NCBI RefSeq assembly: GCF_023501975.1
Contig: NZ_JAMFLH010000004.1
Coordinates: forward strand, 1 to 64,000
DNA: 64,000 nt
Direction of reading: 5' to 3'
Source: Altererythrobacter sp. KTW20L
GTDB lineage: Bacteria; Pseudomonadota; Alphaproteobacteria; Sphingomonadales; Sphingomonadaceae
The translations under genes and the position numbers were made by a program. Below are positions 29,069-47,269 of the stretch, one piece after another (within the stretch, counting starts at the first letter, position 1; each line of letters begins with the position of its first letter). Under the pieces are notes generated by a model. It searched no databases, was not told where the DNA came from, and worked only from the letters and a program-made list of their open reading frames with translations.

Positions 29069-29080
29069 TAACGGGCGTTA
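29069..29080. promoter_or_regulatory. TAAC-N4-GTTA operator, site A
   Basis: Perfect palindrome TAACGGGCGTTA between the divergent NTF2-like (start 29022) and GMC (start 29109) genes. One of four such sites in this window, all in divergent spacers. Confidence 0.6.
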
Positions 29081-29108
29081 GCAATGCGGCAAGGAGAGGT
29101 TTGCCAGC

Positions 29109-30752
29109 ATGGACGAAGCGCAATTCGATTATATCGTCGTGGGCGGCGGCAGCGCGGGCTGCGTGATGGCCGCGCGGCTGAGCGAGGACGGCAAGGACAA
29201 TGTCCTGCTGCTGGAAGCCGGCGGCAGTGACGACCATCCCTTTATCCGTATGCCGCTGGGCTTCCTGCGCGCCATGGTCCTGCCTTCACTCAACTGGACC
29301 TACTGGACCGAACCCGAACCGCATCTGGACGGGCGCCGCATGCCCCTGCCGCGTGGCAAGGTGATGGGCGGATCGGGCTCCATCAACGGCATGTTCGCCA
29401 TGCGCGGACACCCGGCGGACTATGACCAGTGGGCGCAGATGGGCGCGCGCGGCTGGTCCTACGCCGACTGCCTGCCCTATTTCCGCAAGATGGAGGACAG
29501 CTGGCGCGGCGACAGCGAGTACCACGGGACCGGCGGGCCGGTGAAGATCCGCCCGATCGACAGCCCCCACCTGCTGCACGAAGAGATGATGGAAACCGCC
29601 GCCAACGCCGGTTTTGCCACGACCGACGATCTCGGCGGTGCCAACCCCGAAGGCTTTGCCCGCGGCGAGCAGACGGTGGACGAGCGGGGCCGCCGGGTCA
29701 GCTCGGCATCGGCCTATATCAGGCCCGCGCTGGGTCGCCGGAACCTCGATGTGCGCCAGGGCGTGCTGGTGCGGCGTGTGGTATTCGAAGGCAAGCGGGC
29801 GGTGGGTGTCGAGGTTGATACCCCCGCCGGTCCGCAGCTTTTCCGCGCGCGGCGCGAGGTGGTGCTGTCGGGCGGGGCCTACAATTCGCCGCACCTGCTG
29901 ATGCTGTCGGGCGTTGGCCCCGCTTCGCACCTGAAAGACCATGGCATCGCGGTGGTGCATGACAGCCCCGGTGTGGGCCGCAACCTGCAGGAACATCCCA
30001 CCGCCAGCCTCGAATTCGAAGCGAAGGAGAAGGTCACCTTCCTGCGCCAGCTGAGGTGGGACCGCATCCTGTTCAACGCCGCGCGCTGGGCTGTCACCGG
30101 CACCGGCACGATGGCGAGCCAGCTCAACAGTTGTAACGTGGTGGTGCGCACCGCAGACCACCTTGATCGGCCCGACATGCAGATCATGGTCAACCCCATC
30201 CGCTTCGATGCCGCCCCGTGGTTCCCCGGGATCAGGGCGGAACAGGACCACGTGTTCTGGGCCGGGATCGTCCAGCTCCATCCTGAAAGCCGCGGCTGGG
30301 TGGAGCTGAAAAGCGCCGATCCAAACGAGGTCGCTGCCGTGACGCTCAACATCATGTCGGAGGAGGCGGACCTTGTGCAGATGCGCCGCGCGATCCGCAC
30401 CGCGAGGCTGATCTACCGCACCGAGCCGATGGCCAGCCTGATCGGTGCCGAACGCGCGCCGAGTGCCGGGGCGGAGACCGACGACGAACTCGACGCCTTG
30501 ATCCGCGCCAACTGCTATGTCGGCATGCACCCCACCAGCACCTGCGCCATGGCCATGGGCGCGCGGTCGGTGGTGGATGAGCAGTGCCGCGTGATTGGCG
30601 TGGAAGGCCTGCGCGTGGTCGATGCCAGCGTCATGCCCACCGTGCCCGGAGGCAATACCGCCCTGCCGGTCACTATGGTGGCGGAAAAGGCGGCCGACAT
30701 GATGCGCGGGCGGCAATTGCCCGCTGCCGAGCTGGCGGAGGCCGCCGCATGA
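29109..30752 (+). CDS. GMC family oxidoreductase (FAD alcohol dehydrogenase/oxidase)
   Basis: 547 residues. FAD motif VGGGSAGCVMAARLSED near 12-28; GMC signature PLPRGKVMGGSGSINGMFAMRG near 79-100; C-terminal catalytic region with HPTSTCAMAMG near 477 and GLRVVDASVMPTVPGGNT near 502. Members oxidise primary alcohols. In Sphingobium, GMC enzymes (the Phc type) oxidise the side-chain alcohols of phenylcoumaran lignin dimers, so a related role is possible here. Its stop overlaps the ATG of the next gene. Confidence 0.9.
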   Translation: MDEAQFDYIVVGGGSAGCVMAARLSEDGKDNVLLLEAGGSDDHPFIRMPLGFLRAMVLPSLNWTYWTEPEPHLDGRRMPLPRGKVMGGSGSINGMFAMRGHPADYDQWAQMGARGWSYADCLPYFRKMEDSWRGDSEYHGTGGPVKIRPIDSPHLLHEEMMETAANAGFATTDDLGGANPEGFARGEQTVDERGRRVSSASAYIRPALGRRNLDVRQGVLVRRVVFEGKRAVGVEVDTPAGPQLFRARREVVLSGGAYNSPHLLMLSGVGPASHLKDHGIAVVHDSPGVGRNLQEHPTASLEFEAKEKVTFLRQLRWDRILFNAARWAVTGTGTMASQLNSCNVVVRTADHLDRPDMQIMVNPIRFDAAPWFPGIRAEQDHVFWAGIVQLHPESRGWVELKSADPNEVAAVTLNIMSEEADLVQMRRAIRTARLIYRTEPMASLIGAERAPSAGAETDDELDALIRANCYVGMHPTSTCAMAMGARSVVDEQCRVIGVEGLRVVDASVMPTVPGGNTALPVTMVAEKAADMMRGRQLPAAELAEAAA

Positions 30753-31138
30753 GCCGCACCCCGCAGGAAGAAGCAAACCTCGCGCTGGTGCTCGACATGT
30801 TCGCCCATGTTTTGAACCCGATGGATTCAGGTGCAGTGGACCGGTTCATCGCGCCCGGTTACATCCAGCACAACCAGGCCGCCGAGCCGGGGCGTGAGGG
30901 GCTCAAGCGCTTCCTCGACATGATCCGCGCGGCAACGCCCGAAGCCGTCCACGATGTGAAGCGCGCCTTCGTCGATGGCGACCATGTGACGGTCCATTAC
31001 CACGTACGCCGCTGGCCGGATGACCTTGGCTGGGCGGTGATCGACATTTTCCGCATCGAGAACGGCATGATCGCCGAACACTGGGACGTGATGCAGGATG
31101 TGGTCGAGGGCGGACCCAATCCCGCCTCGCCCTTCTGA
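30749..31138 (+). CDS. SnoaL/NTF2-like protein
   Basis: 129 residues; ATG overlaps the GMC stop (ATGA). SnoaL-like signatures: VLDMFAHVLNPMDSGAVDRFIAPGYIQHNQ near 15-44, VHYHVRRW and IDIFRIENGMIAEHWDVMQDV near 98-118. It is close in type to the 54583 gene product. Functions of this group are mostly isomerase, aldolase or hydrolase-like; here undetermined. Part of the operon 29109-32428. Confidence 0.8.
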   Translation: MSRTPQEEANLALVLDMFAHVLNPMDSGAVDRFIAPGYIQHNQAAEPGREGLKRFLDMIRAATPEAVHDVKRAFVDGDHVTVHYHVRRWPDDLGWAVIDIFRIENGMIAEHWDVMQDVVEGGPNPASPF

Positions 31139-31145
31139 GGAGAGA

Positions 31146-31898
31146 ATGATGCGATTCACCGACAAGATCGTGCTGGTACTGGGCGGCAACAGCGGCATCG
31201 GGCTGGCGGCGGCGCAGGCCTTTGCGGCGGAAGGTGCGACGGTCCACCTGACGGGCCGGAACCGGGCGACGATCGACGAGGCCGTGGCGTCCATTCCCGG
31301 CGCTACGGGCCACATGTCCGACATCGCCGACATCCCCGCGACCGAACAGGTAGTTCGCGCGGTCGAACAGGCCCACGGCCGGATCGACGTGTTGTTCATC
31401 AATGCCGGGGTCGGCGGCTTCGCGCCGCTCGAAGGCATTACCGAGGCCGACTGGGACCATGTCCACTCCATCAACCTGAAAGGCTGTGTCTTCGCGCTGC
31501 AAAAGGCGGTTCGGATCATGGGCGAGGGCGGCGCGATCGTGGTGACAGGGTCCATCGGCGCGCATGGTCCGCTTGAAGGCAACGGCACCTATGCCGCCGC
31601 CAAGGCCGGGCTTGCCATGGCCATGAAAGTGTTTGCGAAGGAACTGCTGCCGCGCAAGATCCGCCTAAACATGGTCTCGCCCGGTCCGATCGACACCCCG
31701 CTGCTCCACCGCAATCCCGGCATGGGGCCGGACGATGTGGCGCGGCTGAAGGACATGATGATCGCCAATATCCCGATGCGCCGCATGGGCGAGAGTGACG
31801 AGGTGGCCAAAGCCGTCCTGTTCCTTGCCAGCAGCGATGCCAGTTTCATTACCGGCACCGACCTCCTGGTCGATGGCGGCCTGATAGAGTTGAGCTGA
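31146..31898 (+). CDS. Short-chain dehydrogenase/reductase
   Basis: 250 residues from the tandem ATG at 31146. Classical SDR motifs: GGNSGIG near 14-20, NAGVGG, catalytic Ser in TGSIGAHGP and Tyr/Lys in TYAAAKAGL near 150-158. NAD(P)-dependent oxidation or reduction of a pathway alcohol or ketone is expected. Its stop overlaps the next ATG. Confidence 0.9.
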   Translation: MMRFTDKIVLVLGGNSGIGLAAAQAFAAEGATVHLTGRNRATIDEAVASIPGATGHMSDIADIPATEQVVRAVEQAHGRIDVLFINAGVGGFAPLEGITEADWDHVHSINLKGCVFALQKAVRIMGEGGAIVVTGSIGAHGPLEGNGTYAAAKAGLAMAMKVFAKELLPRKIRLNMVSPGPIDTPLLHRNPGMGPDDVARLKDMMIANIPMRRMGESDEVAKAVLFLASSDASFITGTDLLVDGGLIELS

Positions 31899-32428
31899 TG
31901 ACCCAGTTTTCCGACACCACTCCGTTCACCCCGCCGTTCTCGGAAATCGACAACCCGCGCCTCGAATTCGTGATGGAAGTGCGGCTGACCTTCCCCGAAG
32001 TCTATACCATGGCCCCGCACCCTAATGGCGGAATGCGCAGCGCGGTGCTGGTCCAGGGCGGCACTTTCGAAGGCCCGCATCTGAAGGGCCGCGCCATTCC
32101 GGGATCGGGCGGCGACTATGCCTATTTCCGGCCCGACGATACCGCCGTGTTCGATGCGCGCTACCTGCTGGAGGAGGACGACGGCACGGTGATCCTGCTG
32201 CACAACAAGGGCTTCCTGTGGGGCCGCAAGCCCGACACCATGGCCCGCCTGCGCGACTGGGCCTTCAACGGCGGCGCGCCGGTCCCGCACGAGGACTATT
32301 ACTTGCGCGGCAACCCCACCTTCGAATGCGCCGTGGGCAAGCACGACTGGCTGACCCGCCACGTGTTCATCGGCGTGGGCGAGCGGCGCAGCGACGGCAA
32401 CTGCCTGCGGTATTACGCGCTTGTGTGA
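31898..32428 (+). CDS. DUF3237 family protein
   Basis: 176 residues. DUF3237-like beta-barrel signatures: NPRLEFVMEVRLTFPEVYTM near 19-38, GRAIPGSGGDY near 66, FDARYLLEEDDGTVILLHNKGF near 86-107 and a C-terminal FECAVGKHDWLTRHVFIGVGER. Function not established. It is the last gene of the GMC-SnoaL-SDR operon, with a 1-bp stop/start overlap. Confidence 0.8.
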   Translation: MTQFSDTTPFTPPFSEIDNPRLEFVMEVRLTFPEVYTMAPHPNGGMRSAVLVQGGTFEGPHLKGRAIPGSGGDYAYFRPDDTAVFDARYLLEEDDGTVILLHNKGFLWGRKPDTMARLRDWAFNGGAPVPHEDYYLRGNPTFECAVGKHDWLTRHVFIGVGERRSDGNCLRYYALV

Positions 32429-32520
32429 GCGGTTTGTCGTAAGTTGATTGCGGCCTGGCGCAGCGCAGCTTGATCGGGCAGGTGCCTCCCGTAGTTCCCC
32501 TTGGGTGAGGGGGCAGCAAA

Positions 32521-33132: not shown

Positions 33133-33287
33133 ACTGCGGATGATCCATGTCGCTGTTGTTCGAGTGTAGGATTTATCCACCAGCACTATTGTCGCCACGA
33201 CAGACCTGATCTACCTTCCTGCGCCTGCATCCGGGGGGAACCGGAGCGGTTGAACGAACAGATAATCGTTTCGGGAGGGATTACTTT

Positions 33288-33785: not shown

Positions 33786-33807
33786 TCGTCTTCCAGTGAC
33801 CGCCAAC

Positions 33808-33847
33808 AAAAAGGGCGGGGAAGCGTGCTGCTTCCCCGCCCTTTTTT
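33808..33847 (+). terminator. Strong bidirectional-looking terminator
   Basis: AAGGGCGGGGAAGC and GCTTCCCCGCCCTT pair perfectly over 14 bp around GTGCT, with AAAAA before and TTTTTT after. Ends the DUF1097 transcript and may also stop the converging minus-strand operon. Confidence 0.95.
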
Positions 33848-33865
33848 GTGCCCTGCCGCAGGGGC

Positions 33866-34849
33866 CTAGTCCGAGAAGCTGTGCTCCGACTGGTAGGGCA
33901 TGACCAGGCCCAACGCCTCGATCTCGTGGATCGCGCCGCCCCACACCTTGTAGATGTGGATCGCGGGCATATCGAAGGCATTGAACCTGCTCATGTCGCG
34001 GCTTTCGAACCACGGCACGCCAAGCAGCGGCGTGTGGTCCTTGTCCATCGCGTGGTGGAAATGGCTCATCCCCCAGACCAGGCCGGTAACCGGATCGACG
34101 ATATCCACGCGGCGGTTCTCGATCGTGTCGATGTACTCCCACATGTTGGTGTCCATCTGCGCCGCGCAGCCGAGCCCGCCGAGATAGGCGAACTCGCTGT
34201 CGGAAAACACCTGCCCGGGCCGGGTGAAGCTGTTGCGGGCGGTCTGGTAGCCGTTTTCGTGCCGCACGCAGTCGTCGGCCATCACTGTCAGGCGCGAGTT
34301 GTTGAGATCCAGCGCATCGTAATAGGCACGGCCCAGCCACAGCAGGCGCGCCCGGCTGTCGGCATAGGCTTCGGGCACCGGCATCATGATCTGCACGCGC
34401 GGGCTTTGCAGGTTGGCGAGCTGGCCTTCCGTCAGGTTGCGCGCCACCAGGTGTTCGGCCTCGCTGATCGCGCCGCTGGCATCCAGCTTGAGGCGAATAC
34501 CCACCAGCACCGGCGCATCGCCTTCGACCATCATCTTGAGCAGGCCGACCTGCTGGCTGACCGGATCGGGCACGTGGATGGCATAGTTGTCTTCACCATC
34601 GCCGGTGATCGTGTCGAAGGCCCCGGCCCCCGCGCTGGACGGAGCGAGGTTTTCCATCACCACCGCGCCTGGCGCCCAACGCACCGCGCCCGGTTCGTCA
34701 TCGATCAGCGCCTGGGCATAGCTGTCGGCCAGCGCGATCAGGCAGTCCCGGTCGCAGGATTGCGCCCCGGACTGCGCCTGGGCGGTAGCGGGCAGGGCCA
34801 GCACTATTGCGCTGGCGGCCAGCAAGCCTGCGGTCATCGACTTCATCAT
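33866..34849 (-). CDS. Hypothetical periplasmic protein, SnoaL/DUF8021-like
   Basis: 327 residues. Sec signal peptide to about residue 26 (ALPATAQAQ-S). The mature start CDRDCLIALADSYAQALIDDEPGAVRWAPGAVVMEN resembles the repeat units of DUF8021-type secreted NTF2-like proteins, and a second similar unit with DCVRHENGYQTARN follows. Paired cysteines suggest disulphides, as in an exported protein. It is the last gene of the minus operon starting at the lignostilbene-dioxygenase-like gene (37987). Function unknown. Confidence 0.55.
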   Translation of the reverse strand: MMKSMTAGLLAASAIVLALPATAQAQSGAQSCDRDCLIALADSYAQALIDDEPGAVRWAPGAVVMENLAPSSAGAGAFDTITGDGEDNYAIHVPDPVSQQVGLLKMMVEGDAPVLVGIRLKLDASGAISEAEHLVARNLTEGQLANLQSPRVQIMMPVPEAYADSRARLLWLGRAYYDALDLNNSRLTVMADDCVRHENGYQTARNSFTRPGQVFSDSEFAYLGGLGCAAQMDTNMWEYIDTIENRRVDIVDPVTGLVWGMSHFHHAMDKDHTPLLGVPWFESRDMSRFNAFDMPAIHIYKVWGGAIHEIEALGLVMPYQSEHSFSD

Positions 34850-36511: not shown

Positions 36512-37987
36512 CTACTTGACCCGGCTACCATCCAGCCGCTCGCGGCTGACCCAGGTGCCGTGGACCTGGCTGCGCAGGGCAAGGCCCGTTTTGACTTTCG
36601 CTACCGGCCCGTTCTCCACCGCATCGGCTTCCACGATCCAGACCTCGCTGGAATAGTCCGCCGGGTTGGGGCTGTTGGGCACGTCCACCACGGTGAGCAG
36701 CCAGCCGCCGTGGCCCGCCTCGCTCGACGGCACGTGCGCCGGTTCGCTGATGCCTGCGCCGGGCGGCAGTTCCATCATGGTCACCCGGCCATTGCCCGGC
36801 TCGATCCTGAGCAGGGCATTGAAATTGGCGCCCACCGGGCCGCCCAGCATCGGCGGACCCTTGGCTTGCGGGTTCATCGAGAGATACCAGGCCCGGTTGT
36901 ACGGGCGGCCTTGGTCGGCATCGGCCAGGCGGCAGAGGTCGCCGGGAGGGCCGATGGGGCGTTCCTCGATAGCGGGCGCGTCCTTGCCCATGTCGATCGT
37001 CCAGCGGGTCAGCGCGCCCTGGATCTCGCGCTGGTCGCGGTGGATGCCACCCGCCTCGCGCATGAAGGCAAAGGCATTGGTATCGGTGAGGCACAGGTCG
37101 ATGTGGACCAGGTCGCCGTCATCGTAGGCGTTGACCTCGTGGAAGCATGACACGCCGACCGGCCCTTCGATCCACTTCATCTCGCTCACATCGCCATAGC
37201 GCGGCATGATGCCGATATAGGATGGCTTGTCCTGATGATGCGCCCAGTGCGCGCCGCCAGCCCTCAAGCGGTCGAGATCGGCCAGAGTCGGGAAGATGGG
37301 GAAGATCGCGTAATTCTCGGTAATCACGAAGTCGTGGATGGTGGAAAGGTAGGGCTGCTCGAACCACTGTTCCTTGACCAGGTTGCCTTGCGCATCGGCG
37401 ATGCAATAGGCCACGTTGGGATCGCACAGTCCGCCCGCTTCATAGCCGAAGAAGAACAGCTCGCCCGTGACCGGATCGACGCGGGGGTGTGCGGTGAAGG
37501 TCTGGCTGCGCAGCTTTCCTTCATAGTCCCACTTGCCGACAGTCTCCAGCGTGTGGGGGTTCACCTCGTAACCGCGCCCGTCTTCCTTGGTCATGAACAG
37601 GCGGCCGGCGTGCCATACCGGCGTGGTGTTGGCGACGGTGCGGTCCTTGCCCTCTGCCGCCGGATCGTCGGTGAAGGGATTGCGGTACTGCCCGAACAGC
37701 GCCCGCCGCGCCTCGCGCTCCAGCTTGTAGCGTTCGGTCTCGACATACCGGATAGCGAAATCGACCGCGCCGCCGGAAAAGTCGAACTTGGCGATCATCC
37801 CGTCGGCGTTCAACGCAATGTCATCGTCGAACATCGGCGCATGGGCATTGTCGGGCACGGCGCGGAAGAAAGCGCCTTCGACATCGGCCGGGATCGTGCC
37901 TTCCACGGCGAGGTCGCGAACCGACATTTCCACCCGCCGCGGGGTGTTGGTGCCGATAAAATGGATTGTCTGCGGAAAGGCAGTCAT
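36512..37987 (-). CDS. Carotenoid-oxygenase family, lignostilbene dioxygenase-like
   Basis: 491 residues; a seven-bladed propeller Fe(II) dioxygenase. Four His ligands can be placed: AHPRVDP near 166, IHDFVIT near 216, FHEVNAY near 281 and VHGTWV near 477. It has no signal peptide and is cytoplasmic. In sphingomonads such enzymes split the C=C bond of lignostilbenes into two aromatic aldehydes. Gene order (MarR divergent; secreted protein, DoxX-like and DUF8021-like proteins downstream) supports catabolism. A TAAC-N4-GTTA site is 40 bp upstream. Confidence 0.85.
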   Translation of the reverse strand: MTAFPQTIHFIGTNTPRRVEMSVRDLAVEGTIPADVEGAFFRAVPDNAHAPMFDDDIALNADGMIAKFDFSGGAVDFAIRYVETERYKLEREARRALFGQYRNPFTDDPAAEGKDRTVANTTPVWHAGRLFMTKEDGRGYEVNPHTLETVGKWDYEGKLRSQTFTAHPRVDPVTGELFFFGYEAGGLCDPNVAYCIADAQGNLVKEQWFEQPYLSTIHDFVITENYAIFPIFPTLADLDRLRAGGAHWAHHQDKPSYIGIMPRYGDVSEMKWIEGPVGVSCFHEVNAYDDGDLVHIDLCLTDTNAFAFMREAGGIHRDQREIQGALTRWTIDMGKDAPAIEERPIGPPGDLCRLADADQGRPYNRAWYLSMNPQAKGPPMLGGPVGANFNALLRIEPGNGRVTMMELPPGAGISEPAHVPSSEAGHGGWLLTVVDVPNSPNPADYSSEVWIVEADAVENGPVAKVKTGLALRSQVHGTWVSRERLDGSRVK

Positions 37988-38026
37988 GGCCCTCTTGTCC
38001 TCTCTTTTGATTCCTCGCCATAATGC

Positions 38027-38038
38027 TAACAGGTGTTA
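38027..38038. promoter_or_regulatory. TAAC-N4-GTTA operator, site B
   Basis: TAACAGGTGTTA, perfect half-sites, between the divergent lignostilbene-dioxygenase-like gene (start 37987) and the MarR gene (start 38106). Confidence 0.55.
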
Positions 38039-38105
38039 TGGTGGGCGGAAACAGCGTTTCGGCATGTTTAGGGGCACAAGCAGAGTGGACAGGGCAGGGG
38101 ACGAC

Positions 38106-38585
38106 ATGACGGGCAAGGCAAAGTTGCTGCACGACATGCTGAAATTGAACAACCGGCTGATGGCCCCGTTCAGCACGCACCTGTCGCACCGCTACCGCAT
38201 CAGCCTCAACGAATTCCGCCTGCTGATGACCATCGGCGCACTGGGCCGCACTGCCAGCCACGAGGTGGCCGACCTGACCGGCGTCAACGTGATGAGCGTG
38301 AGCCGCGCGGTCGCAACACTGCAGCGGAGCGACCGGGTAGAGGTGGTGCGCGACGAAGCCAACCGCCGGCGCAAATGGCTGACCCTGACCGAGGAGGGCC
38401 AGCGCCTGTATGAGGTCATGCGCCCGCAAAGCGACAAGGTGGCAGACTACCTGTTCGACGGGCTCGACAAGGACGAACTGGCCAATCTGGCCAACCTTGT
38501 CGAACGGCTGACCGACCGGCTGGAAGCGACCGACGAGAAGGGCCGCACGCGCTTCCTCGAAGTGACCCGGCCTGAAGAGGATTGA
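38106..38585 (+). CDS. MarR family transcriptional regulator
   Basis: 159 residues from ATG at 38106; an ATG at 38064 is an alternative. Winged-helix signatures: ISLNEFRLLMTIGALGRTASHEVADLTGVNVMSVSRAVATLQRSD near 34-78, then RRRKWLTLTEEGQRLYE. MarR proteins commonly sense aromatic acids or CoA thioesters. The divergent operator-bearing spacer suggests it may control the neighbouring dioxygenase operon, but no proof of binding exists. Confidence 0.85.
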   Translation: MTGKAKLLHDMLKLNNRLMAPFSTHLSHRYRISLNEFRLLMTIGALGRTASHEVADLTGVNVMSVSRAVATLQRSDRVEVVRDEANRRRKWLTLTEEGQRLYEVMRPQSDKVADYLFDGLDKDELANLANLVERLTDRLEATDEKGRTRFLEVTRPEED

Positions 38586-38590: not shown

Positions 38591-39016
38591 ATGGACGAGG
38601 GGCAGCGCCGCGCGATCGAGGCCGATGTTACGCGGCTGATCCACGCCTACACCTGGGCCAACGACGATGCCGACTGGCACGCCTGCGCCGCACTCTACAC
38701 CGACAATGCCCGGTTCAGCCGCCCCAGCGGGGGCGAGGCCATTGTCGGGCGCGAGGCAATCCTGGCAGGCTTCCTCGCCCGCGCGCCGCGGGTCCAGCGC
38801 CATGCCATTGCCAATGTGCTGGTGGACGTGGTGGACGAGAATACCGCCCGCGCCCGCAGCGTGATCGTGCTCTACATGGGCGACGCTGCACCCGATGGCC
38901 TTCCCGTGCAGGATGTGAAAAGCCCGCTGGTCGGCACCTTCACCGACCTGTGCGTCAGGACGACCGAAGGCTGGCGCTTTGCCGAGCGGGTGGGCGGGCT
39001 GGACTTCCGGCCCTAG
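38591..39016 (+). CDS. NTF2/SnoaL-like protein
   Basis: 141 residues from ATG at 38591, with GAGG 11 bp upstream. Typical pattern: LIHAYTWANDDADWHACAALYTDNARF near 19-45 and FTDLCVRTTEGWRFAERVGGLDF near 118. It resembles the ring-hydroxylase-beta-like branch of the NTF2 fold. It starts 5 bp after the marR stop and is likely co-transcribed. Function unknown. Confidence 0.8.
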   Translation: MDEGQRRAIEADVTRLIHAYTWANDDADWHACAALYTDNARFSRPSGGEAIVGREAILAGFLARAPRVQRHAIANVLVDVVDENTARARSVIVLYMGDAAPDGLPVQDVKSPLVGTFTDLCVRTTEGWRFAERVGGLDFRP

Positions 39017-39279: not shown

Positions 39280-40572
39280 TCAGCCTGTTGCGGATGCAGC
39301 AACGCGGGCTTCCTCGCGCCCCTTTACCAGCAGTGCCCGGCTCACCAGCAGCGCCACCACCACGCAGGCTACTGCGGGGAAAGCGGCCACGCCGATGATC
39401 GTCTGGGCGGGCATCCCGGCCCCGATCATCGCGGCACCCAGCGGCGGCCCGGCAAAGGCCCCCAGTCGCGCCACCAGCACGCCCATGCCGACCGCGCTCG
39501 ACAGCAGCCGCGCGGGGAACAGGTAGGCGGCCAGCCCCGGCAGGACCATGCCACCGGCATTGGCTCCGCCCACGCCGACCATCAGCATCAGCGTCCACCG
39601 GGTGGTGTCTGGCGCAGTCAGGGCGATCACGGCAAAGCTGGCCGTCATCGATCCGAACAGCAGCATCAGGGTGAGGCCCTTCTTCCAGCGATCCATCAGC
39701 ATGGACGCCCCGATGCCGATGACCAGGCCCGCAAGGTTCGCCACGCCCGCCACCTGCGCTGCCACGTCGAGCGACAGACCCGCTTGCGGAAGGATGGTCG
39801 GCAGCCAGGAATTGAGCTTCCACAGCACCATCGCATTGAGCGCCAGCATCGAGGCGAATACCGCGAACGGAAAAGCCCAGGGGCTGAGGAACAGCCCCAG
39901 TTGCGGCAACTTGCCGACCAGGCCCCCGGCGGGCTTGGTGGCAGTGGCGGGATCTCCACCTGCATCTTCACTGGCAGTGCTTGGCACCACCTTGGGTTCG
40001 GACGATTGCGGAACTCCGCCATCGAGCATGAACCACAGCAGGAAGGCCAGGGTTATCGCGGTTATGCCGGGGACGTAGAACAGGCCCTGCCATTCGATCA
40101 GGCCGATGATCGCCGGGGCGGCAAATCCGGCCAGGGCCAGGCCCACCGGGATGCCTGCGGAAACCACGGCCATGATCGTCGCGCGCATCCCGGCCGGTGC
40201 CAGTTCGCTCGACAGGGCGCTGACGTTGGGCAGGCAGGCTCCCAGGGCAAGGCCGGTGAGGAAGCGCCAGATCAGGAATTCGGTCGTCGTGGTGGATGTT
40301 GCCGTTGCCAGGGTGACAAGGCCGGTGGCGAGGCACCCGGCCACGATCAGCGCGCGCCTGCCGAAACGGTCTCCCAGCGGCGCAATCGTCGCCCCGCCGA
40401 TACCAAGCCCCAGCAGGATCGCGGTGAAGACCCAGCCGAAGTTTTCCGGCGGAATGCCCAGCGGGCCTTCGAGCCGCGGGACGACCAGTCCCATGGCGGC
40501 AATATCGAAGCCTTCCATCACGAACACGCCCGTCATCAGGCCGAGCGCGACCAGGTTGCGCCTTGAAAACAT
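39280..40572 (-). CDS. MFS transporter, aromatic acid:H+ symporter (AAHS) type
   Basis: 430 residues, 12 membrane helices. Signatures: GVFVMEGFDIAAMGLVVPRLEG near 15-36, GDRFGRRALIVAG near 67-79 (the DRxGRR loop) and the charged DxxGRR-like MDRWKKGLTLML in the second half. The DGFD-like GFDIAAMG in helix 1 is typical of AAHS permeases, which import benzoate-type acids. Likely uptake of a lignin-derived aromatic acid; the substrate is not known. Confidence 0.85.
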   Translation of the reverse strand: MFSRRNLVALGLMTGVFVMEGFDIAAMGLVVPRLEGPLGIPPENFGWVFTAILLGLGIGGATIAPLGDRFGRRALIVAGCLATGLVTLATATSTTTTEFLIWRFLTGLALGACLPNVSALSSELAPAGMRATIMAVVSAGIPVGLALAGFAAPAIIGLIEWQGLFYVPGITAITLAFLLWFMLDGGVPQSSEPKVVPSTASEDAGGDPATATKPAGGLVGKLPQLGLFLSPWAFPFAVFASMLALNAMVLWKLNSWLPTILPQAGLSLDVAAQVAGVANLAGLVIGIGASMLMDRWKKGLTLMLLFGSMTASFAVIALTAPDTTRWTLMLMVGVGGANAGGMVLPGLAAYLFPARLLSSAVGMGVLVARLGAFAGPPLGAAMIGAGMPAQTIIGVAAFPAVACVVVALLVSRALLVKGREEARVAASATG

Positions 40573-40589
40573 CCCTTATCTCTCCCCTC

Positions 40590-40626: not shown

Positions 40627-40639
40627 TGTTATTGTGTTG

Positions 40640-41503
40640 TCAGCTCCGATTATCCCAAGGACTGGGCATGCGATAGGGCACGGTAAGGAAATCGGCCTCG
40701 ACCTGCTCGATGGCATGGTCCCTGATGCGGAAGGCTTCGGCAAGGTAATAGCTGTGCGGGCGGCGCACCGGGCTGCGGGCAGGCGTGCCGTCGGTCAGGG
40801 TGTAGTCGCCCAGGCGGCCCGAATGGTCGATGAAGCCATAGGCCAGCACGGTGCCGCGTTCGACGTCCACCAGCGGGAAGCGGCGGGCGCGCAAGTCGTC
40901 GTCATAGCGGTACCAGCCAAGCGCGAACTGTTCCTCGCAACCTAGTTTGGCGATGGGCAGCGGAAAATCGGCGTTGTTGGTGGTCTGCACGCCGTTTTCC
41001 ACCCGGTTGCACTGCGGCCAGAACTTCGTGGCGATGGTCCCGTCGTTGCGCTCGATCGTTTCGAAATAGCCGTTGGCCACGCGTACCAGCTCGTCGCGGC
41101 TGGCGCGCTCGGCTGCGGGGATTTCGGCTTCCATGACGGGCTTGGTTTCGAAGAACTGCGGACCGAAGGGGAAGCCTTCGTCCTTGTTGCGGGCGACCAC
41201 GGTTTCCACCCCGGTTACAAGGCCGTCCTCGCCCACCTCCAGCCTGATGCAGCACGGATTGAGCGAATCGGTCTCCTCGATGGCGGTGAACACGGCAACC
41301 TGCCGGGCGTCCGGTTCGGCCACCCGCAACTGGTAGGGGTGGAGCGCGGTCACGGTGTTCCAGCAGCCGTCGCCGGGTTCCAGCACCACGTTGTTCTCGG
41401 TCATGAAAGCGCCAGCGGCCAGCGGGGCGGCGGATATGTCGCGCGTTGCCAGCGCCGCCAGCCAGGCATCGAGCACGGCGTAGAGTTCTTCGCGGGTGGC
41501 CAA
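40640..41503 (-). CDS. Hypothetical NTF2-like double-domain protein
   Basis: About 287 residues from TTG at 41503, after a GGGAGA box; a much longer frame upstream runs antisense to the SDR gene and is rejected. Contains REELYAVLDAWLAALATRDISAAPLAAGAFMTENNVVLEPGDG at the N-terminus, with an NTF2-like helix followed by strands, and a second unit with LVRVANGYFETIERNDGT near 150. Divergent from the SDR gene with a TAAC-N4-GTTA site in between. Function unknown. Confidence 0.6.
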   Translation of the reverse strand: MATREELYAVLDAWLAALATRDISAAPLAAGAFMTENNVVLEPGDGCWNTVTALHPYQLRVAEPDARQVAVFTAIEETDSLNPCCIRLEVGEDGLVTGVETVVARNKDEGFPFGPQFFETKPVMEAEIPAAERASRDELVRVANGYFETIERNDGTIATKFWPQCNRVENGVQTTNNADFPLPIAKLGCEEQFALGWYRYDDDLRARRFPLVDVERGTVLAYGFIDHSGRLGDYTLTDGTPARSPVRRPHSYYLAEAFRIRDHAIEQVEADFLTVPYRMPSPWDNRS

Positions 41504-41547
41504 GATTGTCTCCCTCTCCTTGACTTCATAGCCTGCTACCTCAAAAG

Positions 41548-41559
41548 TAACGTTCGTTA
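41548..41559. promoter_or_regulatory. TAAC-N4-GTTA operator, site C
   Basis: TAACGTTCGTTA, perfect, between the divergent NTF2-like gene (TTG 41503) and the SDR gene (41597). Confidence 0.6.
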
Positions 41560-41596
41560 AAGTCGCGACGCAGAATCGCGCAGATTTGGAGAGCTG

Positions 41597-42376
41597 ATGG
41601 ATCCGCGTGGGAAACTGGCCGTCGTGACCGGCGGCAATTCGGGACTGGGCGAGGGCGCTGCCCGTCGCCTGCTGGCCGATGGCGCGACCGTGATCAGCCT
41701 CGATGTGGCGGACGACGCTCCTGCAGGCGCGCATTTCATCCAATGCGACGTCAGCGATGCGGCATCGGTGAAAGCTGCCGTGGCCGAAGTGGTGGAACGG
41801 TTCGGCGAAATCCATATCCTGCTCAACAATGCCGGGATCGGCGGGATCGGGCCGATTGCCACGGCGGAAGGTCCGGGCGACCTGGAGGCGTTCTCGCGCG
41901 TGATCGCGGTCAACCTGATGGGCGCGGTGAACGTGGCGGCCCACGTGGCGCACCGCATGACCGGTAACCACCCCAGCGGGCCGGATGGCGAGCGCGGGGT
42001 GATCGTCAATTCCTGCTCCATCGCCAGCTTCGAAGGGCAGGAAGGCATGGGCGCCTATACCGCCGCCAAGTCTGCGCTGAAGGAGCTGACGCTGGTCTGG
42101 GCGCGCGACCTGTCGCGCCATGCGATCCGCGTGTGTGGCGTGGCGCCGGGCTTCATGGCAACGCCGATGGTGGCCATGCTGCCGCCCGATTTCGTGGAAG
42201 AACTGCTGCGCGACGTGGAATTTCCCAAGCGCGCCGGCACGGCAGAGGATTTTGCCGCCGCGGTCGATTTCCTCATCCGCACGCCGCTGGTAAACGGCGA
42301 AGTGTTGCGGCTGGATGGCGGGGCGCGACCGCCCGCCCGGACACAATGGGCATCAAATTCGGCTTCTGGCCAGTAA
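41597..42376 (+). CDS. Short-chain dehydrogenase/reductase
   Basis: 259 residues. SDR motifs: TGGNSGLGEG near 12-21, NNAGIGG near 77, Ser in NSCSIASFEG and the catalytic Tyr/Lys in AYTAAKSAL near 154-162. It starts the plus-strand operon leading to the VAO-type flavoprotein and cytochrome; it would oxidise or reduce the alcohol or aldehyde they form. Confidence 0.9.
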   Translation: MDPRGKLAVVTGGNSGLGEGAARRLLADGATVISLDVADDAPAGAHFIQCDVSDAASVKAAVAEVVERFGEIHILLNNAGIGGIGPIATAEGPGDLEAFSRVIAVNLMGAVNVAAHVAHRMTGNHPSGPDGERGVIVNSCSIASFEGQEGMGAYTAAKSALKELTLVWARDLSRHAIRVCGVAPGFMATPMVAMLPPDFVEELLRDVEFPKRAGTAEDFAAAVDFLIRTPLVNGEVLRLDGGARPPARTQWASNSASGQ

Positions 42377-42388
42377 GGACAATAGACA

Positions 42389-43948
42389 ATGGCCGATATC
42401 CCCCTTCCTCCCGATTTCACCACGCAGAAGATGGACCAGGCGCGCCGCGCGCTGGAGGCCGTGCTGGGTGCGAGCAAGGTGTTCTTCGAAGACCTCGACC
42501 GGCTGACCTATCAGGACAAGTTCTCGGTCGATGACAGCCTGCACCATCCGGCGGGCGCGGTGGCCTGCGAAAGCGTGGAGGAAGTCCAGGCGGTGGTGCG
42601 GATCGCCAACCAGTACCGCCTGCCGCTGTTCCCCATCAGCCGCGGCAAGAACCTGGGCTATGGCGGCAGCGCGCCGGTGATGGCGGGCTCGGTCGTGCTC
42701 GACCTGTCGCGCATGAAGAAGATCGAGTTCGATGCGGAACTCGGCACCGTGGTGCTGGAACCGGGCGTCGGGTTCTATGACCTGTACGACTATATCCAGC
42801 GCAACAACCTGCCCTACTGGCTGTCCACCCCCGGCAATTCCTGGGGCAGTGTGATGGGCAACGCACTCGATCGCGGGGTCGGCTACACTCCCTATGGCGA
42901 GCATGTGAAGAACATCTGCGGCATGGAAGTGGTCATGCCCGATGGCGACCTGGTGCGCACCGGCATGGGCGCTTTCACCAATGCGCCGACGTGGCAGGCC
43001 TATCCCTTCGGCTTCGGGCCGGGGTGGGACCAGATGTTCGTGCAATCGAACTTCGGCATCGTCACCAAGATGGGCATGTGGCTGATGCCCGAGCCCGAAA
43101 GCCTGATGGGCATGGATGTCGAATTCGACCGGCCGGAAGACCTGAAGGTCATGGTCGATACCATCGCGCCGTTGCGGCGCGAGCGGGTGCTGACCCAGAG
43201 CCCCTCCATCGGCAACTGGATGCGCGCCGCCGCCGTGCTCACCCGCCGGACCGACTGGACCGACAAGCCCGGTGCCATCACCGATGACGTGATCGACGCC
43301 ATCCGCCAGCGCTTCAACATCGGCTGGTGGGGCGTATCGCTCAGGCTCTATGGCCGCGAGGATGTGAACAAGGCGGCCTACAAGATTCTTGAGACCGCGA
43401 TGGGCAATGCCAGGCCGATGGCCATCCAGCCGACCACCTGGCGCCGGGGCGAGCCGCTGGAATATACCGGCTGGACCGGCACGCCGATGACCTTCCCCAT
43501 GCAGAACGTGAACTGGTACGGCGGACGCGGCGGGCATATCGGCTTTTCGCCCATCATCCCGCAGGACGGCGATGCGGCGCTGGCCCAGTTCAACCGCACC
43601 TATGCCCGCTACCAGGAATACGGCATGGACTACCAGGGCAGCTTCGCCTTTGGCGAGCGGCACCTGACCAATGTCAACGCCATGGTGTTCAACAAGGACG
43701 ATCCGGCGATGATGGCCAAGGTCGATCCGTTCTTCCGCACGCTGGTGGCCGATGCGAAGGAGCACGGCTATGGCGAATACCGCACCCATCTCGACTATAT
43801 GGACCTGGTTGCCGACAGCTATGATTTCAACAACGGCGCGATGCGGCGGTTGAACGAGAAGGTGAAGAACGCGCTCGACCCCAACGGCATCATCGCCCCG
43901 GGCAAGAGCGGCATCTGGGGTACCTATTCAGGGGAGCGCGGAGCATGA
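42389..43948 (+). CDS. VAO/4-cresol-dehydrogenase-type flavoprotein (flavocytochrome subunit)
   Basis: 519 residues, the usual length of PchF / EhyB / vanillyl-alcohol oxidase proteins. FAD-binding PCMH features: ISRGKNLGYGGSAPVMAG near 84-101, LEPGVGFYDLYDYI near 127 and STPGNSWGSVMGNALDRGVGYTPYG near 148-172. The C-terminal DPNGIIAPGKSGIW near 498 is family-typical. It removes hydrogen from para-alkyl phenols (for example 4-cresol or eugenol). A cytochrome c gene overlaps its end by 4 bp, so it is probably a flavocytochrome c rather than an oxidase. Substrate not proven. Confidence 0.85.
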   Translation: MADIPLPPDFTTQKMDQARRALEAVLGASKVFFEDLDRLTYQDKFSVDDSLHHPAGAVACESVEEVQAVVRIANQYRLPLFPISRGKNLGYGGSAPVMAGSVVLDLSRMKKIEFDAELGTVVLEPGVGFYDLYDYIQRNNLPYWLSTPGNSWGSVMGNALDRGVGYTPYGEHVKNICGMEVVMPDGDLVRTGMGAFTNAPTWQAYPFGFGPGWDQMFVQSNFGIVTKMGMWLMPEPESLMGMDVEFDRPEDLKVMVDTIAPLRRERVLTQSPSIGNWMRAAAVLTRRTDWTDKPGAITDDVIDAIRQRFNIGWWGVSLRLYGREDVNKAAYKILETAMGNARPMAIQPTTWRRGEPLEYTGWTGTPMTFPMQNVNWYGGRGGHIGFSPIIPQDGDAALAQFNRTYARYQEYGMDYQGSFAFGERHLTNVNAMVFNKDDPAMMAKVDPFFRTLVADAKEHGYGEYRTHLDYMDLVADSYDFNNGAMRRLNEKVKNALDPNGIIAPGKSGIWGTYSGERGA

Positions 43949-44385
43949 GCAGGACTGTTGCCTTTACCGCGCTGGCCGGGCTGGTGCTGGCCGGATGTGC
44001 GGGAGTGGCTGTCGCCCAGAACGCGCCCGATGCCCTCCAGGATGTCGCTCCGGCCACTCCGCCGCCTGCCGGTCCCCCGCCGGGGATGCCGCAGCCGATC
44101 ACCATGGCAAAGCGCCCCGCGGCCACCGGCGGCGAGGCGCTCTATATCGAGCATTGCATGGTGTGCCACGGCCCCAACGGCATGGGCACCGGCCTGCTCG
44201 AACGCGCTGGTCGGCCCGAGCCGCTGCTGGAAATGCGCAGCGGCCTGCCTGCCGCATTCTATGTCACCGCAGCACGCAACGGCATCGGCAACATGCCCTC
44301 CATTCCGCGCGGCGAGGTGAGTGACGAGCAGATGCAGGCGATTGCCGAATATCTGGCCGCAGGACCGCACGGAGTCGCGCCATGA
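43945..44385 (+). CDS. Cytochrome c subunit of the flavocytochrome
   Basis: 146 residues. Sec signal peptide, then a Pro-rich linker, then one heme c site CMVCHGPNGMGTG near 69-81; the Met ligand is likely in the C-terminal NMPSIPRGEVSDEQM. It carries electrons from the FAD subunit to the respiratory chain in the periplasm, as PchC or EhyA does. Overlaps genes on both sides by 4 bp. Confidence 0.9.
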   Translation: MSRTVAFTALAGLVLAGCAGVAVAQNAPDALQDVAPATPPPAGPPPGMPQPITMAKRPAATGGEALYIEHCMVCHGPNGMGTGLLERAGRPEPLLEMRSGLPAAFYVTAARNGIGNMPSIPRGEVSDEQMQAIAEYLAAGPHGVAP

Positions 44386-44912
44386 AAGTTACCCGCCGTA
44401 CCATGATAGCAGGCGCGCTGGCCGTGCCGACCGTGGCGGGCCTCGCCCGCTGGCGCTGGCAGCACGGCAGCCACACCGGCCTGGTCCACGATGGCAGCCT
44501 GGCCGCCGGACGCCGATTTGCCGAAGCCGGGTCGGCTGCGGGCAGGGCGAGCATGGAAGTCCACGGCGACAGGATCCGCTTCGCCCGCGACCTCGTCGCC
44601 ACCGCGCCCTCCCTGATCGCCGGCGTAACCCGCCAGGCCGACGCGGTGCTGATCGCCGATGTCGCTGCAGAGGCGGGCTATGTGCTGGCCGCCGAACTCA
44701 GCGGCAACGATGCGGGATGCAGCGGCAACACCTGCCAGAGCGGCCTCGTCGCGCTCACCCGCATGGCCGTCGGCGCTGGCGGCATGTGGGCCGAGGCTTT
44801 CGCCACCTGGGCCGCCAACCCGCAAGGCCAGGTGCTGCCGGAACCGGCCAGTGGAGGCTGGTTCACCGACCGCGAGATGGCCTTGGGCTGGCTGCTGGTC
44901 CCGCGCGGGTAG
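44382..44912 (+). CDS. Hypothetical twin-arginine-signal protein
   Basis: 176 residues. The start VTRRTMIAGALAVPTVAG looks like a Tat-type signal (R-R plus hydrophobic core). The mature part contains helical heme-free sequence with one Cys pair (DAGCSGNTCQSG) near 118. No family is recognised. It is the third gene of the SDR-flavoprotein-cytochrome operon, with a 4-bp overlap, so it may assist or complete the periplasmic flavocytochrome. Confidence 0.55.
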   Translation: MKVTRRTMIAGALAVPTVAGLARWRWQHGSHTGLVHDGSLAAGRRFAEAGSAAGRASMEVHGDRIRFARDLVATAPSLIAGVTRQADAVLIADVAAEAGYVLAAELSGNDAGCSGNTCQSGLVALTRMAVGAGGMWAEAFATWAANPQGQVLPEPASGGWFTDREMALGWLLVPRG

Positions 44913-44979
44913 GGCGGAATTACGCCACCACCCTACCACCCGGGGTGACTTGGTAGGACTCACAGGTGACCGGCCTGCC

Positions 44980-46557
44980 TCATGCGCTCCCCGGAACCCG
45001 GCACTGGAAGCTGGCCGCCACGGCGGTATCCCCCACACCATCGTACACCGCTTCCATCGGCCAGGCGCACAGCGGGCGCTGCATCGGTGCGCGGGGCGGG
45101 CCGGGAGGGGCACCGAAGCCGCCGCCGCCCTGGGTGGGACGGGTGGCGAGGATGCGATCGGGCGCCTTGCCGGTCGTCGCCCAGTCGTCGATCGTGCCCA
45201 GCACGTCGAACTCGCTGGGGCCGTCGCCGCCCGAACAGTGGCCCATGCCCGGGGCAAAGAACATGCGGAGCTGGTTCTGTGCCTGTGTCGCAGGCAGCGC
45301 GTTGTATAGCCCGTGGTGGAAGGCCAGCGTGTTGGTCGCGGGGATCAGCCCGTCGGCCCAGCCATGGCTGAGCAGCAGCTTGCCGCCGCGCGCGAAGAAG
45401 GCGGACAGCCCGTCAGCGGGCACGTTGAGGATGTCGGCGCCATATTCGCGGCCCACATTGGTATATTCGCGATAATCGGTGGTGCGCCAGTTCCAGTCGG
45501 TGCGGCCCTGGTACACCAGGTCGCGGAAATAGCTCATCGCCACGGGGAAGGGTTCCTGCCCCATGACCAGCGCGGCCAGCTGCATTTCGCTGGAATAGGG
45601 CCAGCCCGGAAGCAGCAGCGTGCCATCATTGGCCCGCACGCCGCCGTAGATATTGGCGACTGCCTGGACCTGTCCGGTGCTCAGGCAGCCTTCCGTCTGG
45701 CCGGGCGCGCATTGCAGGCTGGCGGGGTTGAAGCTGCACTTCATGGGATTGGCGATCAGGCCATCCTCCACCCCGTCCAGCGCATCGCACTGGCGGGTGA
45801 CAGCGCTGTTGACCAGGCCCAGCACCGCCGGGGTGATCTGCACGCCGAAGCGGTGCGGCTGCCATCCCTGCCACATGCTCTGCGTCATCAGGTCGGTCAT
45901 CGGGTTGGCCGGGGCCATGGCGCTGATCGCGTCAAAATCGTTCGGATAGCGGTATGCCGCCATCAGCCCCTGCCGTCCGCCGGTGGAGCATGAACTCCAG
46001 TAGGATTGCGTCGGCGCGCGGCCATAAAACTGCTCGACCACGGCCTTGGCGGCAACCGTGGTGACATGGACCGCGCGGTGGCCGAAATCGACCAGCTTTT
46101 CCGGGTGGCCGATGGCCCATTCGGCAGTCATGCCGCTGCCGGTGTGGCCGGTATCGGTGGCCGCTGTGGCATAGCTGCGCACCACGTTGCGGCCCATCTC
46201 GGTGAACGAGATCGTGCCCGCCCAGATGCCGTTGCCTACGCCGACATATTTGCCGTTCCAGCCGTTGAGCGGCAGCCAGACCTCGCTCTTGATGTCGGAA
46301 TCGCTGGAGGGGGTGAGGGTCAGCCGGACGCGGCAGAAGGCCGGCACATCGGCATAGGGCGATGCCGCCACGCCCGGCGGCGGTCCCATGCCGCTGGCAG
46401 GCGGGGTAAACCCGCCCGCATCGACCACCTGCGCGCTGTCCACCCGCCCATCGGCAATCCGCATCCCCGCCAGGTCTTCGCAGGCGGCAAGTGCCGGGCT
46501 GGAAAGGGCAAGCGCGGCGAGCGAACCGCCAATGGCGAGGATGGTTTTTGCGTGCAT
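44980..46557 (-). CDS. Tannase / feruloyl esterase family protein
   Basis: 525 residues from ATG at 46557, with a Sec signal peptide to about ALSSPALA. The CS-D-HC pattern of the family is present: SCSTGGRQGL near 190, the Asp in GWADGLIPATNT and the HC in GMGHCSGG. It is exported and releases hydroxycinnamates or gallate from esters. It converges with the flavocytochrome operon. Exact ester unknown. Confidence 0.9.
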   Translation of the reverse strand: MHAKTILAIGGSLAALALSSPALAACEDLAGMRIADGRVDSAQVVDAGGFTPPASGMGPPPGVAASPYADVPAFCRVRLTLTPSSDSDIKSEVWLPLNGWNGKYVGVGNGIWAGTISFTEMGRNVVRSYATAATDTGHTGSGMTAEWAIGHPEKLVDFGHRAVHVTTVAAKAVVEQFYGRAPTQSYWSSCSTGGRQGLMAAYRYPNDFDAISAMAPANPMTDLMTQSMWQGWQPHRFGVQITPAVLGLVNSAVTRQCDALDGVEDGLIANPMKCSFNPASLQCAPGQTEGCLSTGQVQAVANIYGGVRANDGTLLLPGWPYSSEMQLAALVMGQEPFPVAMSYFRDLVYQGRTDWNWRTTDYREYTNVGREYGADILNVPADGLSAFFARGGKLLLSHGWADGLIPATNTLAFHHGLYNALPATQAQNQLRMFFAPGMGHCSGGDGPSEFDVLGTIDDWATTGKAPDRILATRPTQGGGGFGAPPGPPRAPMQRPLCAWPMEAVYDGVGDTAVAASFQCRVPGSA

Positions 46558-46632
46558 GTGGTCTCTCCCTGTTTGGGAGTCCTTTTGACGAGGGTTTGGC
46601 CTCGCGGCAAGCCGGGACAGACCCACCCCCGG

Positions 46633-46696
46633 CCCCTCCCGCAAGCGGGAGGGGAGCGACCAGCCTGTGCTATCCCCCTCCCGCCTGCGGGAGGGG
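46633..46696. repeat. Paired REP hairpins (BIME-like)
   Basis: Two copies of a perfect 10-bp stem CCCCTCCCGC / GCGGGAGGGG at 46633-46654 (loop AA) and 46675-46696 (loop CT), spaced by 20 bp. They lie between the esterase gene and the NTF2-like gene. This hairpin type is widespread in alphaproteobacterial spacers (from memory). Confidence 0.8.
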
Positions 46697-46728
46697 TTAG
46701 GGGAGGGCCTGTTGTTCCGCAGCGACTA

Positions 46729-47226
46729 CTAGCGCTTGATAATCAGCGAATCCGGCCTCTTCCTCGGCACCCACTGGCCGCGGCCGGGGAAGTTCTTCAG
46801 CACTTCGCCGTCCCACAGCCGCACGATGCGGGTCTGGAAGCGCCACTTGCCCTCCGCATTCTTGACCGCATGGTCATCGTACCAGCCGGCAAAGCGCAGC
46901 GTGTAGGGCGGTTCGCCCTCGCATTCGGTGACGAAGGCGAAGCTTTTCAGGCGGACCGATCCGTCGGCTTGCGGGAAATACTTCACCTGGGTCACGTGGT
47001 GCTGGCGGCCGGAAAAGCCGGGGGCATTGGCATAGTGCTTCATCAGCCCGCGGATGCCATCATGACCGTTCCAGATGTCGGGATCATCGAACACTTCCTC
47101 GCTCATCAGGCAGTCTTCGGTGAAGCATTCGACCAGGGCATCGGCATCGCCGGTATCCAGCGCCCAGGAATAGTCGGCGATCAGGTCCTGCAAGCCCAGG
47201 CGGTCTTCGATTGACAGTTTGCTCAT
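46729..47226 (-). CDS. NTF2/SnoaL-like protein (ring-hydroxylase-beta-like)
   Basis: 165 residues from ATG at 47226. Pattern IEDRLGLQDLIADYSWALDTGDADALVECFTED near 6-38 and a long strand set ending GEVLKNFPGRGQWVPRKRPDSL. An upstream in-frame extension overlaps the divergent gene and is rejected. A TAAC-N4-GTTA site lies 32 bp upstream. It resembles the lyase-type NTF2 proteins of lignin dimer pathways in general form only. Confidence 0.75.
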   Translation of the reverse strand: MSKLSIEDRLGLQDLIADYSWALDTGDADALVECFTEDCLMSEEVFDDPDIWNGHDGIRGLMKHYANAPGFSGRQHHVTQVKYFPQADGSVRLKSFAFVTECEGEPPYTLRFAGWYDDHAVKNAEGKWRFQTRIVRLWDGEVLKNFPGRGQWVPRKRPDSLIIKR

Positions 47227-47257
47227 GGTCTCTCCCTCTCTTGTGTTGCCTCGACCG

Positions 47258-47269
47258 TAACACTCGTTA
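47258..47269. promoter_or_regulatory. TAAC-N4-GTTA operator, site D
   Basis: TAACACTCGTTA, perfect half-sites, between the divergent NTF2-like gene (47226) and the NmrA-like gene (47300). Confidence 0.6.

Follow-up and report, generated by a model that had tools for sequence, protein, structure and literature searches.

Which regulator controls the catabolic genes on a 64,000-nucleotide stretch of DNA from Altererythrobacter sp. KTW20L (contig NZ_JAMFLH010000004.1 of assembly GCF_023501975.1, positions 1 to 64,000; hereafter the window), and which pathway do these genes serve? The question is raised by four copies of the palindrome TAAC-N4-GTTA, which a preliminary description of the sequence had placed at 29069, 38027, 41548 and 47258. 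All four coordinates were right and all four copies exact, against a mean of 0.01 copies and a maximum of one in 100 dinucleotide shuffles, confirming that the observation is real. According to our own, uncurated gene calls, the window contains ten divergent spacers, of which the four in the catabolic region hold one palindrome each and the other six none. The four sites are as follows.

29069 to 29080, no strand: operator TAACGGGCGTTA in spacer 29023-29108, between SnoaL (28627, minus strand) and GMC (29109, plus strand)
38027 to 38038, no strand: operator TAACAGGTGTTA in spacer 37988-38105, between a lignostilbene-type dioxygenase (36512, minus strand) and MarR (38106, plus strand)
41548 to 41559, no strand: operator TAACGTTCGTTA in spacer 41504-41596, between a double-NTF2 protein (40640, minus strand) and SDR (41597, plus strand)
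47258 to 47269, no strand: operator TAACACTCGTTA in spacer 47227-47299, between SnoaL_4 (46729, minus strand) and NmrA (47300, plus strand)

The palindromes were situated 46, 39, 44 and 31 bases from the minus-strand start codons and 28, 67, 37 and 30 bases from the plus-strand start codons, respectively, which bears out the spacing given before except that each value is one base smaller. The families named for the flanking genes (GMC, MarR, SDR, NmrA, a lignostilbene-type enzyme of the RPE65 family and two NTF2-like proteins of the SnoaL type) were all recovered; the third presumed NTF2-like gene (40640) had no Pfam match, but its predicted fold resembles double NTF2-like proteins. The flanks described as common to three sites were partly correct, with a shared leading G and a shared GCG that is not adjacent but stands five bases after GTTA in all three. 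An additional half-site at 28608 (TAACGCAAGTAT), reported as a 7/8 match, is identical at 6/8 positions only, was absent from the one-mismatch matches and was dropped. Palindromes with at most one mismatch numbered six in the window (exact ones included) against a mean of 2.5 by chance; the signal therefore resides in the exact sites only.

We propose that TAACRNNYGTTA, the form of the palindrome with RNNY at its centre, is very probably the operator of the MarR protein encoded beside the second site, which would repress its own gene and act at about 13 genomic sites, in front of genes that probably serve the breakdown of lignin- or lignan-type dimers.

38106 to 38585, plus strand: MarR-family regulator, proposed owner of the operator (Pfam MarR PF01047, 26.8 bits with a cut-off of 24.6; co-occurrence)

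The sequence relatives of this protein in the PDB were mostly named MarR proteins. The whole-genome search suggested in the preliminary description (3.09 Mb in 35 contigs) returned 19 exact TAAC-N4-GTTA matches, 13 of which fitted TAACRNNYGTTA and were distributed over six contigs. All 13 preceded one or more gene starts, mostly of catabolic genes; 12 were fully intergenic, one of these abutting a stop codon, and the site at C32:93564 overlapped the final three bases of the adjoining gene. The six matches without RNNY were taken as background, five being intergenic beside genes of other kinds, unlike the catabolic targets, and one lying within a gene. Outside the window, RNNY sites precede two lignostilbene-type dioxygenases, a GMC oxidase, a SnoaL protein, two cupin genes, an esterase, a beta-lactamase-type hydrolase and a gluconolactonase-type gene, and one lies between genes resembling a pyrroloquinoline quinone (PQQ) dehydrogenase and an aldehyde dehydrogenase (families judged by eye). 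The earlier view of a regulon of at least eight transcripts over 18 kb is thus supported in positing a single regulon and was too narrow in its extent.

The link between operator and MarR was assessed in 119 genomes of the family, 21 of which contain a homolog of MarR 38106 (E<=1e-10). Fifteen genomes have a close homolog (E<=1e-45, a cut picked after the table had been seen), and these carry 1-13 TAACRNNYGTTA sites (median 9) compared with 0-7 (median 1) in the other 104 (Mann-Whitney p 1e-9, which overstates independence because the genomes are related). A close MarR was present in 13 of the 15 genomes with at least six sites. In the genome of Sphingobium sp. strain SYK-6, all five sites fell at 3.0038-3.0212 Mb, a span of 17.4 kb. 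The MarR gene lies within it at 3.0057 Mb, and no other regulator-like gene was recognised between the outermost sites (own gene calls, judged by eye). The site counts, the co-occurrence table and the SYK-6 scan are free of any choice of loci by MarR. Together with the conservation described below, they lend support to the earlier suggestions that one regulator serves the four divergent pairs and that MarR 38106 is the candidate, and from these genome comparisons MarR 38106 is very probably the owner of the operator, to which it is predicted to bind.

To follow the site in relatives, genome contigs were scanned with the MarR alignment, and 80 loci were kept of the 89 relatives found. Most belonged to Altererythrobacter-like genera, Sphingobium and Novosphingobium, including many metagenome-assembled genomes; a few came from Parvularcula, Marinicaulis and Caulobacteraceae, and a few were labelled beta- or gammaproteobacterial. 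At least one TAAC-N4-GTTA was found in the fetched DNA at 75 of the 80 loci. The conservation check on orthologous divergent spacers showed the exact site in 132 of 136 pairs, the four central bases being variable: 42/42 for the 29069 spacer (SnoaL or methionine-synthase-like on one side, GMC or SnoaL on the other), 34/37 for the dioxygenase-MarR spacer (38027), 33/33 for the 41548 spacer (40640 with SDR or flavoprotein) and 23/24 for the 47258 spacer (SnoaL_4 with NmrA or PQQ dehydrogenase). Across very unlike neighbourhoods the site precedes MarR or the genes ahead of it. In 95 MarR neighbourhoods (1.78 Mb, 88% coding), 244 of 245 distinct palindromes were intergenic, 212 lay in divergent spacers and 242 had the RNNY form. 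Two MarR homologs with no site nearby (L102 and L103) were excluded from the neighbourhood and anatomy counts; adding them back changed nothing in the TTG-box count given below, because neither holds a site. Among control divergent spacers, 22 of 116 contained the site, and by eye and BLAST to window proteins these comprised 15 major facilitator superfamily (MFS) pairs, two LigA/GMC pairs, four SnoaL/TonB-receptor-like pairs and one with MarR. Given this gene make-up, they are likely regulon targets and not chance occurrences, so that the control is contaminated by the regulon.

Loci L139-L158, mostly from Sphingobium, contain 15 divergent MFS transporter pairs (judged by eye) with the operator, and LigA-GMC pairs carry it likewise in L142 and L153.

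Alignment of 248 RNNY sites (204 divergent and 44 single-direction; leaving out one at a locus end, one inside a gene and eight with no start within 250 bp) extended the operator to AYnnTAACRNNYGTTAnnRT. The outer A (-10) and T (+10) were kept on both sides even at single-direction sites (.73/.59). Winged-helix MarR dimers touch the flanks of their operators, so the two-sided outer A/T is as expected. At the single-direction sites, TTG at -19 or -18, positions chosen after the tables had been seen, occurred 19 times on the gene side and six times on the other (p 0.004), and at the divergent sites on both sides (98 and 109). T at -18 was itself asymmetric (25 versus 7 of 44). From these sequence statistics, the gene-side TTG is read as a -35-like box with the operator immediately downstream. 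It follows from this placement that the two promoters of a divergent spacer would overlap, with one operator in their shared core. The T at +10 was also considered as part of a -10 box; this was rejected, since single-direction sites retain this T equally on the side facing no gene, and it is read as part of the operator. In a promoter scan, single matches were as many as in shuffles.

Besides the limits given above with the E-value cut, the p value and the -19/-18 box, several points weigh against the assignment to MarR and the promoter reading. Two genomes have sites without a close MarR (G040 with 7 and G068 with 6); their sites are mostly scattered, and their control-pattern counts are high (31 and 46). 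In the higher-count genomes without a close MarR (G038 with 5, G040 and G068), sites lie far apart or on several contigs, with the exceptions of three G068 sites within ~7 kb and two G038 sites within ~33 kb. Conversely, two close-MarR genomes have few sites, namely G117 with one (fragmented) and G111 with four; the latter encodes another MarR (32%), which has two sites within 7 kb and a lignostilbene dioxygenase (LSD)-NmrA pair nearby. G034 encodes a 45% MarR yet has no TAACRNNYGTTA site, and that MarR (L103/L180) stands outside any catabolic cluster. Five of the 80 MarR loci lacked a site in the fetched DNA, and the loci used for conservation and anatomy were selected by their MarR gene, so these analyses establish conservation and not independent proof of ownership. 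In addition, T at -19 alone was without asymmetry (17 versus 14 of 44).

Two further sets of MarR relatives were observed. In locus L100 (G102), three sites lie close to a second MarR of the group (55-56%), whose neighbours are a gene of 784 aa and SnoaL, MFS and GMC genes, and the switch seems to have been duplicated there together with its operator. Loci L181 and L182 encode relatives of ~45% identity with an upstream TAAC-N4-GTTA outside the RNNY form (TAACCAAGGTTA and TAACCGGCGTTA).

The proposed switch would operate as follows. When no inducer is present, a MarR dimer would occupy the palindrome just downstream of the -35-like box and, with the divergent promoters overlapping, a single dimer could shut both. 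In this way MarR would control its own gene and the ~13 sites, with targets comprising aromatic-dimer enzymes (PinZ, PinY, PinX, PinW/V and PinU families) and feeder functions such as esterases, PQQ and aldehyde dehydrogenases, NTF2-like proteins and MFS transporters. An aromatic pathway intermediate, probably a lignan or the stilbene- or diene-like product formed from it, may act as the inducer that frees the dimer from DNA.

The suggested substrate derives from the enzyme families of the window. The pathway for pinoresinol, a beta-beta dimer, described in 2025 in Novosphingobium rhizosphaerae LY, uses the reductase PinZ, the GMC oxidase PinY, the DUF3237 decarboxylase PinX, the flavocytochrome PinWV and the dioxygenase PinU (PMC12607616, PMC12997858). 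The same families (NmrA reductase, GMC, DUF3237, cresol-dehydrogenase-type flavoprotein with cytochrome c, and lignostilbene-type dioxygenase) are encoded here, the likeness to LY being one of family.

47300 to 48214, plus strand: NmrA-type reductase, PinZ-like (49% to a SYK-6 gene in a position consistent with SLG_07320, pinZ)
29109 to 30752, plus strand: GMC oxidoreductase, PinY family (35% to the SYK-6 GMC placed at SLG_27980)
31898 to 32428, plus strand: DUF3237 protein (PF11578), PinX family, in the GMC gene run (68% to the DUF3237 homolog of SYK-6 assigned to SLG_07290)
42389 to 43948, plus strand: vanillyl-alcohol oxidase/4-cresol dehydrogenase-type flavoprotein, PinW family (family match)
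43945 to 44385, plus strand: cytochrome c partner, PinV family (Pfam family)
36512 to 37987, minus strand: lignostilbene-type dioxygenase, PinU family (RPE65; best PDB match lignostilbene dioxygenase isozyme I, 6ojr)

Published tags in SYK-6 are SLG_07320 for pinZ, SLG_07290 for the pinX homolog and SLG_27980 for the pinY homolog (PMC12607616, PMC12997858); locus tags were assigned here by gene order and these published numbers, not from annotation. The SYK-6 match of NmrA 47300 lies at 766062, three genes from the DUF3237 gene, an order that fits SLG_07290-SLG_07320, and on this basis PinZ is assigned to the NmrA family. The GMC protein under another site of the KTW20L genome (C31:239896) shares 82% identity with the SYK-6 GMC assigned to SLG_27980, compared with 35% for the window GMC. 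The PinWV and PinU assignments (42389 with 43945, and 36512) are by family only; dioxygenase 36512 shares 66% identity with the gene assigned to LSD5 in SYK-6. By position, the SYK-6 operators precede genes fitting bzaA, the pinY homolog with LSD5, and a cresol-dehydrogenase-type flavoprotein. As judged from these family matches, a lignan- or pinoresinol-type substrate is a good guess for the cluster. No regulator of the pinoresinol pathway is named in the available text of PMC12607616 and PMC12997858, where "MarR" has no match, and none is named for the present cluster in the literature searched, most subscription journals being beyond the reach of the search.

At locus L028 (C34), a site precedes a lignostilbene-type dioxygenase adjoining LigB-like and LigA-like genes, which may link the regulon to ring cleavage.

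A broader reading is advanced tentatively, with doubt slightly exceeding conviction: one MarR may be the master switch of a whole regulon for lignans and beta-beta lignin dimers in Sphingomonadales and some neighbouring Alphaproteobacteria (the Parvularcula, Marinicaulis and Caulobacteraceae loci). It would act through the 20-bp AYnnTAACRNNYGTTAnnRT in the shared core of overlapping divergent promoters, silencing two operons at once, and the many NTF2-like proteins would be candidate pathway enzymes. Several findings count against the lignan part. No operator accompanies the SYK-6 pinZ-like and pinX-like genes (0.77 Mb), so that the first step of the pathway is not visibly in the regulon there, and the esterase at C31:205284 and the beta-lactamase-like target at C23:225037 have no known lignan tie. 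The SYK-6 pinZ-like gene without a site slightly lowered our estimate of the lignan-wide reading and raised that of its nearest competitor, in which the site belongs to MarR and the regulon is directed at other substrates, for instance stilbenes such as resveratrol, or general phenolics. The likely Sphingobium targets (LigA-GMC and MFS pairs, judged by eye) are also broader than lignans, and the MarR protein Saro_0803 of Novosphingobium aromaticivorans, divergent to the stilbene oxygenase gene nov1, is released by resveratrol (PMC10046596). Against this, the combination of NmrA, GMC, DUF3237, cresol-dehydrogenase flavocytochrome and lignostilbene-type dioxygenase fits the pinoresinol set, and we consider a non-lignan regulon a serious contender, albeit less likely than not.

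Saro_0803/nov1 is the closest described switch, a MarR repressor divergent from a stilbene-cleaving dioxygenase, as for 38106 and 36512 here (the dioxygenase by family only), with an operator at the -10 box and an aromatic inducer (PMC10046596). The two differ in that a single target promoter is described for Saro_0803 in the available text, versus ~13 sites here, and its operator, GCAATA-N6-TATTGC (PMC10046596), has no match in the present genome. The nov1-type operator was therefore rejected as the relevant one; it occurs in 34 of 397 family genomes. N. aromaticivorans is not among the 80 loci kept of the 89 MarR relatives, and Saro_0803 is not listed in the available text of a DNA affinity purification sequencing study of 44 N. 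aromaticivorans regulators (PMC12352068). In SYK-6, the same kind of bacterium, DesR and DdvR are MarR repressors of lignin-derived aromatic catabolism (PMC6888825, PMC6874591), as is FerC, known from a reference title only (PMC8599685). DesR recognises a GTTTGTGTCACATAC-like repeat, unlike TAAC-N4-GTTA, and controls ligM and desB (PMC6888825), and DdvR controls the 5,5'-dehydrodivanillate (DDVA) genes at SLG_076xx-077xx, other targets than those found here (PMC6874591). Gene numbers place both well away from the SYK-6 MarR of the present operator (3.0 Mb).

As to other owners of the palindrome, the preliminary description had also considered a TetR-type regulator outside the window; MarR would then be one target among others. 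Short palindromes of the 4-N4-4 type fit other regulator families too, and the site before marR could reflect plain target status. However, an outside TetR-family or other regulator is unlikely: it explains neither the number of sites following MarR across the 119 genomes, nor the spacer conservation, nor the enclosure of MarR, as sole regulator-like gene, by the SYK-6 sites. A CRP/FNR-type owner is very unlikely. The HcpR2 (GTAACnnnnGTTAC) and NssR (TTAACnnnnGTTAA) motifs have an identical half-site with the same N4 spacing, although their target genes are unrelated to those here, as is the regulator family (PMC1274295). Five CRP/FNR genes score above cut-off in the genome, but none is on the contig of the window (C30), and a regulator of this type would not be expected to show so restricted a site distribution tied to MarR. 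Least probable is the IclR regulator of the same cluster.

26642 to 27409, minus strand: IclR regulator at the end of the leftmost gene run, examined as a rival (Pfam family, co-occurrence)

All 15 close-MarR genomes also have an IclR match at E<=1e-40, but IclR was rejected as owner since the sites do not follow its gene: the five IclR-positive genomes without a close MarR have 0 (G045), 1 (G063), 1 (G072), 0 (G076) and 5 (G050) sites, the IclR neighbourhoods of the first four (18-20 kb each, without MarR) contain none, and four of the five in G050 surround a MarR of 35% identity, with none around its IclR.

With MarR 38106 as the probable owner, the conserved operator tied to one MarR gene provides a candidate regulator for a recently described kind of pathway, and a DNA signature that could be used to list more pathway genes in relatives, among them unassigned NTF2-like proteins and esterases. 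SYK-6 offers a ready test system, with five predicted operators around one MarR gene, and the MarR/operator pair could supply a sensor part for detection of lignans or lignin dimers.

The other genes of the catabolic region are given below.

28627 to 29022, minus strand: SnoaL-like protein (Pfam family)
30749 to 31138, plus strand: SnoaL-like protein, directly after GMC in its gene run (Pfam family)
31149 to 31898, plus strand: SDR, next in the GMC gene run (Pfam family)
38591 to 39016, plus strand: SnoaL_4 protein behind MarR (Pfam family)
39280 to 40572, minus strand: MFS transporter, downstream of 40640 (Pfam family)
40640 to 41503, minus strand: double NTF2-like protein without a Pfam family (predicted fold)
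41597 to 42376, plus strand: SDR (Pfam family)
46729 to 47226, minus strand: SnoaL_4 protein (Pfam family)
48226 to 50424, plus strand: PQQ dehydrogenase with cytochrome domain, downstream of NmrA (Pfam family)
50453 to 51919, plus strand: aldehyde dehydrogenase (71% to a SYK-6 gene in a position consistent with bzaA)

At 61509-63565 of the window, another lignostilbene-type dioxygenase gene is transcribed divergently to a SnoaL_4 gene, and the 119-bp spacer between them has no TAAC operator. The model of 40640 had a predicted local distance difference test score (pLDDT) of 89, and its top Foldseek matches were the Lsd19 and MonB epoxide hydrolases, followed by ketosteroid isomerases. The SYK-6 homolog of 40640 also matches 33866 (33866-34849) at 32%, and the N-terminus of the latter is secreted-looking.

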